In this document: positions 57,911-62,608 of the stretch, in pieces
How positions within the stretch are numbered: the first letter of the stretch is position 1
Layout of the letters: the number at the start of each line of letters is the position of its first letter
Notes under the pieces: generated by a model
What the model saw: only the letters and a program-made list of their open reading frames with translations
Told to the model about the DNA's origin: nothing
The model's database searches: none
Assembly: GCF_021887715.1 (NCBI RefSeq)
Contig: NZ_JAIQXX010000009.1
Coordinates: 1 to 64,000 of the forward strand
Length of the DNA: 64,000 nt
From: Winogradskyella immobilis
Lineage (GTDB): Bacteria > Bacteroidota > Bacteroidia > Flavobacteriales > Flavobacteriaceae
Direction of reading: 5' to 3'
Program-made: the position numbers and the translations under genes

Positions 57911-57918
57911 TATTTTTG
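57911..57918 (+). promoter_or_regulatory. Candidate -7 promoter box of the cysteine-synthase-like gene
   Basis: TATTTTTG fits TAnnTTTG, giving a leader of about 45 nt. No clear -33 element was found. Confidence 0.3.
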
Positions 57919-57967: not shown

Positions 57968-59005
57968 ATGAAAGAAAATAATAATGTTTATAACAGTGTG
58001 CTTCAATTAATTGGTAGTACGCCGCTTATTAAATTGAATAAGATAACAGAAGGATTTAAAGGTGATTTCTATGCTAAAGTAGAAGCTTTTAACCCTGGTC
58101 ATTCATCTAAAGACCGTATTGCACTTCATATTATAGAGGAGGCAGAACGCCAAGGTATTCTAAAACCAAATGATACAATAATAGAAACTACATCTGGTAA
58201 TACAGGCTTTAGTTTAGCAATGGTAAGTATTATAAAAGGGTATAAATGTATTTTAGCAGTAAGTTCTAAATCGTCTCCAGATAAGATAGATATGCTTAAA
58301 TCTATGGGAGCAAAAGTATACGTTTGTCCTGCTCATGTTAAAGCAGATGATCCAAGATCGTATTATGAGGTAGCAAAACGTTTACATAGTGAAACCAAAG
58401 GTTCAATATACATTAATCAATACTTTAATAAATTAAATATTGATGCACACTACAAAACTACTGGTCCTGAAATATGGAAACAAACAGAAGGTCAACTAAC
58501 ACATCTTGTAGCTTGCGGAGGAACAGGTGGAACTATTTCAGGAATTTCTAAATATTTAAAAGAACAGAATCCAGATATTAAAGTTATTGGTGTAGATGCT
58601 TATGGTTCTGTGATAAAAAAGTTTCATGAAACTGGTGAGTTTGATGAAAAAGAGATATACCCTTATCGTATAGAAGGTTTAGGGAAAAACTTAATACCAT
58701 CTTCTATGGATTTTGACGTCATAGATAAATTTGTAAAAGTTACAGATTCTGATAGTGCTCACACAGCGAGAGAAATTTCGCAAACAGAAGGCTTATTTAT
58801 TGGGTATACTAGTGGTGCTGCAATGCAAGCTTTAAAACAATTAAATGAAGAGGAAGAATTTAATGAAGGAGATAAAGTTGTTGTTGTATTTCCAGACCAT
58901 GGATCAAGGTATATGAGTAAGATTTATAATGACAAATGGATGGAAGACCAAGGGTTTTTAGATAAGGATCCTGTTATTTCTTCTAATATTGAATATATTA
59001 AATAG
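57968..59005 (+). CDS. Cysteine synthase-family PLP enzyme, candidate cysteate synthase
   Basis: This 345-residue fold-type II PLP enzyme has the family start [16 protein letters not shown], the PLP lysine Lys48 in NPGHSSKDR, the substrate loop [13 protein letters not shown] and the phosphate loop [11 protein letters not shown] Ser in [10 protein letters not shown] binds the pyridine nitrogen. This group makes cysteine (CysK/CysM) or cystathionine; some relatives use sulfite to make cysteate. It sits 206 bp before an alpha-oxoamine synthase gene, a pairing expected for sulfonolipid synthesis. A terminator lies between them, so they may be transcribed separately. Plain cysteine synthase is the main alternative. 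Confidence 0.88.
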
Positions 59006-59021
59006 AAAAAACAAAATTATT

Positions 59022-59059
59022 AAAAGACCTATTAGAATTGATTTTTAATAGGCTTTTTT
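59022..59059 (+). terminator. Terminator after the cysteine-synthase-like gene
   Basis: Stem CCTATTA/TAATAGG is extended by AAAAG/CTTTT around a bulged A, and a T run follows. Some read-through to the next gene remains possible. Confidence 0.7.
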
Positions 59060-59118
59060 GTGATAATATTAGAGAGACAGAAAGCATAAATAAATTATGC
59101 AGTCATAATATTATTACC

Positions 59119-59126
59119 TAATTTTG
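59119..59126 (+). promoter_or_regulatory. Candidate -7 promoter box of the alpha-oxoamine synthase gene
   Basis: TAATTTTG fits TAnnTTTG; the leader would be about 80 nt. The -33 element is weak. Confidence 0.35.
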
Positions 59127-59211
59127 CCTAACTAATTGACTATTTTAACTAAAATTATTTATTTAAAACTTAAAATAACTATAAATTTAAGTTTTGAACC
59201 AGAAACGATGT

Positions 59212-60471
59212 ATGAAGGATTTATTTGAAAAGATTTACAGAGATAAAGGCCCTTTAGGTAAATGGGCTGCACAAGCTGAAGGTTATTTTGTTTTTCCAAA
59301 ATTGGAAGGACAAATTTCTAACCGAATGAAGTTTCAAGGAAAAGATGTTATTACATGGAGTATTAATGATTATTTAGGCTTAGCTAATCATCCTGAAGTT
59401 CGTAAAGTAGACGCTGAAGCTGCTGCTCAGTATGGCTCTGCTTACCCTATGGGAGCACGAATGATGTCTGGACATACAGATCTTCATGAAAAATTGCAAA
59501 ATGAATTAGCTGCATTTGTTAATAAAGAAGCTGCTTACTTATTAAATTTCGGTTATCAAGGTATGGTATCAACTGTTGATGCTTTAGTATCTAAAGATGA
59601 TATTATTGTTTATGACGTTGATGCCCATGCATGTATTATTGACGGTGTGCGTTTGCATATGGGTAAACGTTTTACATATAAGCATAATGATGTTGAAAGC
59701 CTTGAAAAAAACCTTGAACGTGCTACTAAAATGGCAGAGCAAACTGGAGGAGGTATATTGGTTATTTCTGAAGGTGTTTTTGGTATGCGAGGTGAACAAG
59801 GTCGACTAAAAGAAATTGTTGCCCTTAAAAAGAAATTTAATTTTAGATTATTTGTCGATGATGCTCATGGTTTTGGAACTTTGGGTGCTACGGGAGCTGG
59901 TGCTGGTGAAGAACAAGGTGTTCAAGATGATATAGATGTGTACTTTGCTACGTTTGCTAAATCTTTAGCAAGTACAGGGGCATTTATTGCAGCAGATAAG
60001 GAAATTATTGATTATTTAAAATATAATTTACGATCTCAAATGTTTGCAAAGTCTCTACAAATGCAATTGGTAGTAGGTGCTTTAAAGCGTTTAGATATGT
60101 TAAGGACAATGCCAGAGTTAAAACAAAATCTTTGGAAAATTGTTGATGCATTACAATCGGGATTAAAATCTCGTGGATTTAATATTGGTACAACTCAAAG
60201 TTGCGTTACTCCTGTATACCTAAAAGGTAGTATCCCTGAAGCTATGGCTTTAGTTAGAGATTTAAGAGAAAATCACGGAATATTCTGTTCTATAGTGGTT
60301 TATCCTGTTATACCTAAAGGAATGATTTTACTAAGAATGATTCCTACCGCAACACATACATTGCAAGATGTAGAAGAAACTTTAGATGCTTTTGACGCTA
60401 TTAGAGATCGATTAGATAATGGAACTTATAAACGTATGTCAGCTGCTTTAATTGCTGCTATGGGTGAGTAG
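59212..60471 (+). CDS. Alpha-oxoamine synthase: cysteate-fatty acyl transferase or serine palmitoyltransferase-like
   Basis: Enzymes of this PLP family condense an amino acid with an acyl thioester and release CO2. The protein has 419 residues from the ATG at 59212; a TTG at 59194 would add six. Landmarks are a stacking His in DVDAHACIIDG, the DDAHGFGTLGATG loop, the PLP Lys250 in FATFAKSLASTGAF and a C-terminal SIVVYPVIPKG segment. Serine palmitoyltransferase, cysteate-fatty acyl transferase (capnine synthesis), 2-amino-3-ketobutyrate CoA ligase and BioF share this fold. The neighbouring cysteine-synthase-like gene favours the cysteate enzyme, but substrate residues cannot be settled by eye. 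Confidence 0.88.
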   Translation: MKDLFEKIYRDKGPLGKWAAQAEGYFVFPKLEGQISNRMKFQGKDVITWSINDYLGLANHPEVRKVDAEAAAQYGSAYPMGARMMSGHTDLHEKLQNELAAFVNKEAAYLLNFGYQGMVSTVDALVSKDDIIVYDVDAHACIIDGVRLHMGKRFTYKHNDVESLEKNLERATKMAEQTGGGILVISEGVFGMRGEQGRLKEIVALKKKFNFRLFVDDAHGFGTLGATGAGAGEEQGVQDDIDVYFATFAKSLASTGAFIAADKEIIDYLKYNLRSQMFAKSLQMQLVVGALKRLDMLRTMPELKQNLWKIVDALQSGLKSRGFNIGTTQSCVTPVYLKGSIPEAMALVRDLRENHGIFCSIVVYPVIPKGMILLRMIPTATHTLQDVEETLDAFDAIRDRLDNGTYKRMSAALIAAMGE

Positions 60472-60493: not shown

Positions 60494-60523
60494 AAAAAGA
60501 GCTATTAATTAATAGCTCTTTTT
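60494..60523. terminator. Bidirectional terminator, 30-bp perfect palindrome
   Basis: AAAAAGAGCTATTAA is joined directly to its exact complement. It ends immediately before the stop codon of the convergent GNAT gene and serves both genes. Confidence 0.85.
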
Positions 60524-61645
60524 TTATACAATATTCTTTTTGAATGTACATCTACGTTTATTGACAACCGGTTTAAAGTTTTTCCAGAGTTGTTGTATCG
60601 CAATATTGTCATCTAATTCAGGACCTCTAACACAAAGTTCAATATTTTTTGCTTTGAAAGTCTTGTGGAATTCTTCAAAGATAATAGCTGTAACTCCTTT
60701 ATTCTGGTATTCGGGCAAAACACCTATAAGATAAAATGTTACTGTTTTTGCATGTTTTTTTGCATTTAACAAATGCATAAACCCTAAAGGAAACAACCTA
60801 CCATTAATTTTTTGAAGTGCTTTAGCATAAGAAGGTGTTACAATGCCAAAGCCTACAACCTTATCATCTTTGTCTAAAACAAATTTCACATATTCAGGAT
60901 TTAAGAAGCTAATGAATTTATTTTTAAAATACTCACGTTGTTCTTTATTAATCTCAACAAAAGATGATAATACTGAATGCGATTTTGAAAACACATCAAA
61001 CATCTCATCCGCATAATTCATAATGTCTTTACTATTATCAAAATTAAGCGGACGTAGCTGGTAACGCCTTTTTACCATATTTTGAACTCTGGAAAAAAAT
61101 TCTGGCAAGATATTTTTAAATTCCATAACATTTTCAGAATAGGTTTTACCAACACTATAATCAAGAGATTTAAAGTGTTCTGCATAATAAGGATGATTAT
61201 GCCAAGTAATCATACTTCCCATTTGATCAAATCCTTCAGTAAGTACGCCAACCTTATCTAAATTAGAAAAACCTACTGGACCTTCAACATATTTCAATTG
61301 TTTTTGTTTTCCTATTTCATGTACTTTATCGAGTAGTACTTTAGTAACTTCAATATCATCAATAACATCAAACCAACCAAAACGCATTTTTGGTTCGTTT
61401 TGCCCTTTAACTTCTAACCAATTGATAATAGCAGCAATTCTACCTACTACAGTATTGTTTTTATAGGCGAGAAAGAAATACGCTTCAGCATCCTTAAAAA
61501 CAGGATTAATATCCTTATTAAATGTTCTTAGTTCTTCTGCTATTATTGGTGGTACCCAATATTTAGAATTTTTGTAAAGTGTAAAAGGAAACTTAACAAA
61601 AGCTTTTAATTCTTTTTTGGATGTGGCTTCTTTAATTGTAATCAT
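60524..61645 (-). CDS. GNAT-fold acyltransferase-like protein, candidate sphingolipid/sulfonolipid N-acyltransferase
   Basis: The 373-residue protein is much longer than ordinary GNAT acetyltransferases. The N-terminal part (about 1-130) has KKELKAFVKFPFTLYKNSKY and YFFLAYKNNTVVGRIAAII. The C-terminal GNAT core has the acyl-CoA loop YLIGVLPEYQNKGVTAIIFE. Many Bacteroidota have such a long GNAT protein, usually annotated only as N-acetyltransferase. The Caulobacter ceramide synthase is, as I recall, also a GNAT-type protein encoded near its serine palmitoyltransferase gene. Convergent placement beside the alpha-oxoamine synthase therefore suggests N-acylation of capnine or a sphingoid base. 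That is inference; the fold is the firm part. Confidence 0.78.
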   Translation of the reverse strand: MITIKEATSKKELKAFVKFPFTLYKNSKYWVPPIIAEELRTFNKDINPVFKDAEAYFFLAYKNNTVVGRIAAIINWLEVKGQNEPKMRFGWFDVIDDIEVTKVLLDKVHEIGKQKQLKYVEGPVGFSNLDKVGVLTEGFDQMGSMITWHNHPYYAEHFKSLDYSVGKTYSENVMEFKNILPEFFSRVQNMVKRRYQLRPLNFDNSKDIMNYADEMFDVFSKSHSVLSSFVEINKEQREYFKNKFISFLNPEYVKFVLDKDDKVVGFGIVTPSYAKALQKINGRLFPLGFMHLLNAKKHAKTVTFYLIGVLPEYQNKGVTAIIFEEFHKTFKAKNIELCVRGPELDDNIAIQQLWKNFKPVVNKRRCTFKKNIV

Positions 61646-61723: not shown

Positions 61724-62608
61724 TCATTGTTCAGTTTTATATTTATGAAAATCTAAACGATAAGAAGCTCCAAAACCAATATTAAATACAGAAGGTGTGT
61801 CTTTAGTATTAAAAGCGACATTAGCATCCAATTGAAAATTTTTAGTCCATAGATATGCACCGCCAAATCTAAAAAGATTATCAGAATAAAAATCACCTTT
61901 TATACCTTGGGCTTCCCCAAATACGACCCATTGGGGTGAAAAGGAATGTGTTAATGTTAAAACATATTGAAACTCAGAAAAATCATTGCCAATACGATCA
62001 AAAATTAAATTAGTTACAAATACCCAACCTCCATTAAAATTATTCTGAGTTGCCACCATTACTTTAGGGCTAAAGCCATCAGCATCTGGCGGAGTTATAG
62101 GATTATCTTCAGTATCAAAATTTGCCCCTGCAAATACCGCTACAGCTGGTATTAAAGATTTCCATTTAAATTTATTATTTGCATGGTAACTATATAGGTT
62201 TGGTTTTTCTTCTTCTGCATTTTTATAAGGATCATATACTAAGTATTTTGCGCCAATTGTAAAATTTCTTAAGTTAGCTCGGTCTCTTTCAAAAGGAATA
62301 GAAGAAGTGTTACTTGTAAACGTGTCATTTTGGTAAACACCATCTAAACTTAATTCTAATTGTTCTAATAAAAAACCATATCGGACAGCAAAGTCCACAC
62401 CGAAACCATTAATTTCAAAATTTAGTGGGGTATGTTCTTCATCAATACTAAAGCCTCCTAGTTCAAATTGTACAACATTAGTACCAACAGAAAAGGCTGA
62501 TTTTGAAACACCTGGACGATTAGAATTTATAACCTCTGTGTATTGCGCGTTTGCTGAGCAGGATAAAAACAGCAATGCAACTATAAAAAATGATTTTTGT
62601 AATGTCAT
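61724..62608 (-). CDS. Outer-membrane beta-barrel protein (MetA-pathway transporter-like)
   Basis: The ATG at 62608 gives a signal peptide (MTLQKSFFIVALLFLSCSANAQ); an in-frame TTG lies 21 nt upstream. The mature part (about 272 residues) is beta-rich: NRPGVSKSAFSVGTNVVQFELG, YGFLLEQLELSLDGVY, and a final NVAFNTKDTPSVFNIGFGASYRLDF ending close to the C-terminus. This fits the putative phenol-degradation (MetA) transporter group of porin-like proteins. The function is unknown. A Cys in the signal region (LSCSAN) makes a lipoprotein possible but less likely. It is monocistronic. Confidence 0.8.
   Translation of the reverse strand: MTLQKSFFIVALLFLSCSANAQYTEVINSNRPGVSKSAFSVGTNVVQFELGGFSIDEEHTPLNFEINGFGVDFAVRYGFLLEQLELSLDGVYQNDTFTSNTSSIPFERDRANLRNFTIGAKYLVYDPYKNAEEEKPNLYSYHANNKFKWKSLIPAVAVFAGANFDTEDNPITPPDADGFSPKVMVATQNNFNGGWVFVTNLIFDRIGNDFSEFQYVLTLTHSFSPQWVVFGEAQGIKGDFYSDNLFRFGGAYLWTKNFQLDANVAFNTKDTPSVFNIGFGASYRLDFHKYKTEQ

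Follow-up and report, generated by a model that had tools for sequence, protein, structure and literature searches.

A candidate N-acyltransferase of sulfonolipid synthesis beside the capA-capB gene pair of Winogradskyella immobilis

The window studied here, a stretch of 64,000 nucleotides from Winogradskyella immobilis (NCBI RefSeq assembly GCF_021887715.1, contig NZ_JAIQXX010000009.1, positions 1 to 64,000 of the forward strand), contains two genes for the synthesis of capnine, capA and capB, and, convergent to them, a gene for a GNAT protein at 60524-61645. We propose this protein as a candidate capnine or 3-ketocapnine N-acyltransferase ('CapD'), the missing enzyme of sulfonolipid synthesis, and consider the proposal slightly better than an even bet. 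The nature of the capA-capB pair is a separate matter, and we are highly confident that it is an ordinary member of the published capnine (sulfonolipid) pathway. A preliminary description, made from the letters of this DNA alone, had suggested such a pair, and it is borne out: both reading frames are open, lie on the forward strand and have been assigned to their families. As the pair itself is of an already known kind, the new element is the adjacent GNAT of the bCerS family, which was absent from that description. The genome examined comprises 3.0 Mb in 82 contigs; for comparison, we used a survey of 198 Bacteroidota genomes, 74 with and 124 without a cysteate-C-fatty acyltransferase (CFAT, the capB product), and 80 Flavobacteriaceae loci, which are stretches fetched around GNAT homologues. 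The features of the locus are collected in Table 1.

Judged by sequence, the window GNAT belongs to the bCerS/YghO family. No NCBIfam model scored above its cut-off for this protein, its Pfam GNAT matches are weak, with only PF00583 above cut-off (30.2 versus 20.7), and its nearest named relatives are two Winogradskyella records with 83% identity. A tblastn search of plasmids returned 43 records, including Escherichia coli YghO and proteins of Roseomonas and Sphingomonas. YghO is a full-length homologue (24.8% identity over residues 1-372, E 3e-24), and passages of PMC9386255 list yghO and CC_1154 as the same gene, aca, for an acyl-CoA N-acyltransferase of dihydroceramide synthesis. Likewise, BF9343_4218 and CCNA_01212 serve as CerS references in PMC10865984. 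Four of the five plasmid records inspected carry a gene resembling that of serine palmitoyltransferase (SPT) 3-8 kb away (E. coli L121, Roseomonas L119, Sphingomonas L120 and Pseudomonas L122), and two of these, L119 and L121, have annotated genes for an acyl carrier protein (ACP), an epimerase and a fatty acyl-AMP ligase. On a Chloroflexota plasmid (L123), a relative with 34.5% identity has no SPT or CFAT gene within the 17 kb viewed.

The AlphaFold2 model of the window GNAT predicts a tandem-GNAT protein (mean pLDDT 87.2, pTM 0.84). Its best structural matches are tandem GNAT acetyltransferases (7q3a: Z 22.9, 304 aligned residues, root-mean-square deviation 3.4), and N-myristoyltransferases match as well, with Z about 15; by sequence, the search for a solved relative gave only matches with E ≥ 0.026. 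The predicted fold fits acyl transfer to an amine, while leaving the acyl length and the substrate unfixed.

In Bacteroidota, a GNAT homologue lies within 3 kb of at least 31 of the 68 SPT-like genes, in all 31 cases on the same strand, with gaps between the matches of 13-586 bp that, among the matches listed, measure 74-122 bp in 23 of the 31 pairs. Genes for SPT, a bCerS-family GNAT and a protein of 328-336 residues are consecutive in L101, L103, L105 and L110, and, judging from how large the genes are and how they are arranged, also in L102; in L101, the third gene belongs to the epimerase family by Pfam, is possibly CerR-like and is followed by a myo-inositol-phosphate synthase gene. Unlike in these rows, spt, bCerS and cerR are said in passages of PMC11334938 not to be close together in Bacteroidota.

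The window GNAT is not part of the clade of SPT-linked bCerS proteins. In a tree of 68 GNAT proteins, 22 of the 23 SPT-linked rows (19 from Bacteroidota, beside SPT, and four proteobacterial ones within 8 kb of it) lie across a branch with support of 100/100, and G033 alone falls on the window's side. The window's own clade unites 13 rows of its own family (100/100) and, at 100/99, 17 rows, all from CFAT genomes. A third clade, clade II, holds 17 rows from CFAT genomes of other families. Because these rows had been picked from CFAT genomes, we searched all 198 genomes with a clade II profile: 22 of them score at least 494 bits, the next one 306, and all 22 have CFAT, including the eight that were outside the search profile (one of which, G138, had been seen earlier) besides the 14 within it. 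Taken together, the window subclade (at least 320 bits) and clade II account for 42 of the 74 CFAT genomes and for none of the 124 others, counts that are uncorrected for kinship. A Fisher p of 5e-23 was set aside in favour of these counts, as it ignores kinship and the bit-score cut-offs were chosen after the scores were known.

A genome is counted here as lacking SPT if the window CFAT finds no SPT-like match in it at E ≤ 1e-60, a threshold that may miss divergent SPTs. CFAT without an SPT-like match is seen in 44 genomes, 36 of which carry the window subclade or clade II, and the W. immobilis genome itself has CFAT, one single bCerS-family GNAT match and no SPT-like match. Two genomes, G012 and G095 (L060, L061, L253), have CFAT, both window-type and clade II GNATs (two of clade II in G012) and no SPT-like match. 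If our proposal holds, at least two clades of acyltransferases would accompany CFAT, one in Flavobacteriaceae and their near kin and the other mainly in other families, just as SPT-adjacent bCerS proteins accompany SPT.

Alternatively, the GNAT may be unrelated to sulfonolipids, acylating another amine and standing beside capB through conserved Flavobacteriaceae gene order, a serious contender to which we give somewhat less than an even chance. Several observations speak for it and weigh against our proposal. The convergent GNAT adjoins CFAT in 13 of 19 own-family genomes and in 67 of the 80 Flavobacteriaceae loci (for two of the other 13, the DNA on that side is shorter than 400 bases), but the genes on its far side are conserved as well or better, with the gene at 61724 in 80, the YfhO-like gene in 78 and the DUF4834 gene in 70 loci. 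The CFAT-GNAT linkage may therefore be plain synteny, and we rejected the adjacency as proof. Furthermore, 32 of the 74 CFAT genomes have neither GNAT clade. Among the 44 without an SPT-like match, three (G017, G037 and G162) have a relative of 230-320 bits and G178 a divergent one, and four lack a full-length homologue: G053 and G041 have none, G064 and G158 only partial, weak matches. Six CFAT neighbours sent to Pfam, one from G053, one from G041 and four from G064, include no acyltransferase; they are a peptidase S15 (G053), a helicase (G041) and a glyoxalase, a short-chain dehydrogenase/reductase (SDR), an AP_endonuc_2 protein and a gluconate dehydrogenase subunit (G064). CFAT and SPT are found together in 30 genomes, and 24 of these have neither clade, namely 23 of family f22, six of which hold a weaker relative of one GNAT clade, and G179. 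For those without even such a relative, it may be that both pathways share the SPT-adjacent GNAT, that no acyl group is added to the sulfonolipid, or that our proposal is wrong.

Relatives of the window GNAT with 230-320 bits also occur in 14 CFAT-less genomes. One relative stands beside FabZ-like and ketoacyl synthase genes (L062:1384-4110) and another beside an SDR gene (L251:11608-13603), possibly as parts of another N-acyl lipid or polyene cluster. Given the 14 genomes and these fatty-acid-synthesis-type neighbours, the wider GNAT clade is not tied to CFAT. What speaks against an unrelated GNAT is the company it keeps: its family includes both YghO, the product of a gene named for N-acylation in dihydroceramide synthesis, and the same-strand partners of SPT, its subclade and clade II are confined to CFAT genomes in the survey, and in its own genome it is the only match to the family, alongside CFAT and no SPT-like match.

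For CapA, the first gene of the pair, the assignment is firmer: it encodes, as judged from models and tree, a CapA-type cysteate synthase. The 345-residue product has the pyridoxal phosphate (PLP) lysine, Lys48, within HSSKDR and the TSGNTG loop beginning at residue 75; the preliminary description had pointed out this lysine and this loop. It passes the NCBIfam CapA equivalog NF053679 (648.9 bits, cut-off 600) and, by Pfam, has PALP as its one domain, with no CBS domains at the C-terminus. Among solved structures, the closest is 9k2p (517.8 bits), an entry to which no function is assigned; cystathionine beta-synthase (CBS) comes next with 284.2. In a tree of 39 PALP proteins, a 100/99 branch sets a CapA clade of 29 rows (the window, 18 rows above the CapA cut-off, eight named relatives and two rows of family f2 with 548 and 546 bits) apart from ten rows, all below that cut-off, which include the genome's own paralogue L002 and no named CysK, CysM or CBS reference.

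It is highly improbable that this gene is a housekeeping CBS or cysteine synthase gene that came to lie beside capB by chance. It does share the PALP fold with these enzymes and scores 397.6 bits with the CBS equivalog, but this is below the cut-off of 510, and the NCBIfam CysK and CysM models are likewise missed; together with its separate clade, this places the enzyme outside CysK/CysM, as the preliminary description had supposed. Moreover, the genome has another PALP protein of the same type, L002, which clears no cut-off (CapA 469 < 600, CBS 437.7 < 510), and a CapA match above 400 bits accompanies CFAT in 43 of the 80 Flavobacteriaceae loci. In the phylum survey, the CapA cut-off is cleared in 19 of 198 genomes, all of the window's own family, and a CapA match of at least 508 bits adjoins 12 of the 74 CFAT genes, nine of these among the 19 own-family genomes. 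On the other side of the balance, capA lies outside the fetched flank in 24 of the 67 loci with CFAT beside GNAT, mostly Flavobacterium records; in four of these 24, the DNA on the capA side is shorter than 4 kb. A CapA-like gene with 508 bits, below the cut-off, lies 277 bp from CFAT in L032 (G037:C52:70837-71796); it sits on a long branch outside the CapA clade and may be a cysteate synthase that branched off early or was recruited separately. The idea that the first enzyme makes cysteate has also moved past mere inference, in that Capnocytophaga CapA is reported to form it by sulfonating phosphoserine (review PMC10191378).

The second gene, by its sequence, encodes CapB, a CFAT. Its product has 419 residues from the ATG at 59212, and under this start the catalytic Lys250 lies in TFAKSLAS, the position given in the preliminary description. 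As this start places residue 1 on residue 1 of PDB entry 28eh in an end-to-end alignment, the TTG at 59194 is probably not the start. The best solved relatives are 28eh (712.5 bits), deposited under the name Cysteate-C-fatty acyltransferase, and 7u7h (575.1 bits), which we take to be Alistipes finegoldii SulA; SPT scores 246.1. The SulA residues Asn53, His140, Lys251 and Arg376 are matched by N52, H139, K250 and R375 of CapB. Lys281 of SulA, an alanine in SPT, has been singled out as diagnostic (Radka et al., PMC9304779), and CapB has Lys280 at this position. All 40 aligned CFAT or CFAT-like rows (one gene is represented twice) have the lysine, and all 23 SPT-like rows have alanine. The same 40 rows form a clade (100/100) apart from the 23 SPT-like rows and from the Kbl and BioF-like genes of the W. 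immobilis genome, so that the second enzyme, too, falls outside SPT and Kbl, in line with the preliminary description.

We see next to no chance that this gene encodes SPT and that the locus serves ordinary sphingolipids: CapB is in the same alpha-oxoamine synthase (AOS) family and shares 33-37% identity with SPT-like genes, but it has Lys280, its own clade and capA as a neighbour, and it stays below the SPT equivalog NF047600 (303.5 < 640). Beyond capB, the AOS matches in the genome are Kbl (702.6 versus a cut-off of 493) and a BioF-like gene (335.7, below its cut-off of 426); no further AOS match and no SPT-like match was found there. On these grounds, sulfonolipids rather than sphingolipids are the expected products of the host.

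Between capA and capB lies a gap of 206 bases with a terminator-like hairpin (59027-59053) and T-run, followed by the box TAATTTTG. In Bacteroidota, TAnnTTTG serves as a promoter element. Judged from the window by itself, neither feature goes beyond chance, since a box appears in 25% of the shuffled gaps and a hairpin of this kind in 29%. Across the 43 loci of the 80 that have capA beside capB, however, the box is found in all 43 gaps versus 10.3 expected from dinucleotide shuffles, and the hairpin in 34 versus 11.1, although the loci are related and their counts not independent. The conserved hairpin and promoter-like box make separate transcription of both genes likely. The terminator, new promoter and separate control of the two steps that had been suggested thus find support at the level of conserved motifs.

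Table 1. Features of the capnine locus and its surroundings, with positions in the window.
Feature	Position	Strand	Evidence
TAnnTTTG (Bacteroidota -7-type) box TATTTTTG, 5' of capA	57911-57918	+	motif match
capA, cysteate synthase	57968-59005	+	NF053679 648.9 bits; PDB 9k2p 517.8 bits; tree
Intrinsic-terminator-like hairpin and T-run, 3' of capA	59027-59059	+	hairpin in 34/43 relatives (11.1 expected)
TAnnTTTG box TAATTTTG, 93 nt before the capB ATG	59119-59126	+	gap box in 43/43 relatives (10.3 expected)
capB, cysteate-C-fatty acyltransferase (CFAT, SulA type)	59212-60471	+	PDB 28eh 712.5 bits; residues; tree
Perfect-stem hairpin and T-run between convergent capB and GNAT, possible two-way terminator	60497-60525	strand-neutral	hairpin search
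Tandem-GNAT, bCerS/YghO family, 373 aa	60524-61645	-	YghO homology; SPT-GNAT pairs in relatives; tree; model; CFAT co-occurrence
PF13557 protein	61724-62629		hits in 80/80 Flavobacteriaceae loci
DUF4834 protein	62714-63001		hits in 70/80 Flavobacteriaceae loci
Presumed YfhO-like membrane protein	63082-63999		hits in 78/80 Flavobacteriaceae loci

In the wider locus, the genes are ordered as follows: a GntG-family PLP aldolase, a 103-aa reading frame on the reverse strand, an S9 prolyl oligopeptidase-type protein, capA, capB, the convergent GNAT, the PF13557 protein, the DUF4834 protein and a membrane protein, which we take to be YfhO-like.

Liu et al. reportedly described CapA and CapB of Capnocytophaga and CapC of Ornithobacterium in 2022. 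The window genes share family membership with the former two, so far as a likening by family rather than direct sequence comparison goes, and their reactions are expected to be alike. CapA, as a PLP enzyme, would convert O-phosphoserine and sulfite to cysteate, and CapB, a PLP-dependent AOS, would condense cysteate with a fatty acyl thioester to 3-ketocapnine and CO2. For CapC, the genome holds no confident counterpart. An SDR gene outside the window, L128 (G000:C33), resembles 3-ketodihydrosphingosine reductase (KDSR) and might reduce the ketone; its best model is NF049977, the KDSR model, with 252.3 bits against a cut-off of 400, and it comes from 2 of 14 SDR matches that were chosen by eye. 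N-acylation of capnine or 3-ketocapnine would then fall to the GNAT, by analogy with the role of bCerS in ceramide synthesis; for Caulobacter, acylation before reduction has been proposed (PMC11087976). An enzyme for the third step of a four-step route is reported in PMC11211663, the covered parts of which do not name one for the fourth. Nor does the literature searched, in which the primary papers Liu 2022, Vences-Guzman 2021 and Hou 2022 were outside the scope, name an N-acyltransferase that leads from capnine to sulfobacin-type lipids.

The resemblance to other known systems is graded. SulA (7u7h) is of the same family as the window CapB, with its catalytic and diagnostic lysines aligned, and uses acyl-ACP as acyl donor (PMC9304779), while Alistipes is said to use another cysteate synthase (review PMC10191378). 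The Flavobacterium johnsoniae CFAT, Fjoh_2419, has the same named activity and is likened by name, not by sequence. SPT (3a2b, NF047600) has the AOS family and the four catalytic residues in common with CapB, but differs by its alanine in place of Lys280 and its separate clade. Among the bCerS/CerS/Aca proteins, the window GNAT resembles YghO over its full length and has a predicted tandem-GNAT fold, whereas Caulobacter CC_1154 and Bacteroides fragilis BF9343_4218 are likened by description; it differs in its clade from all but one of the SPT-linked proteins and in its place, convergent beside CFAT and not beside SPT, and its substrate would be a sulfonate base.

Sulfonolipids have been connected with flavobacterial gliding and with inflammation (PMC10191378; PMC11211663), as well as with choanoflagellate development (PMC3463246). 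CapA, CapB and ketoreductases of this pathway have already been characterised; to these, the window adds a single-copy N-acyltransferase candidate from a genome in which no SPT was detected. A second GNAT clade, from the survey of the phylum, is a further candidate. The GNAT described here offers a candidate for the final enzyme of sulfonolipid synthesis that can be put to the test.

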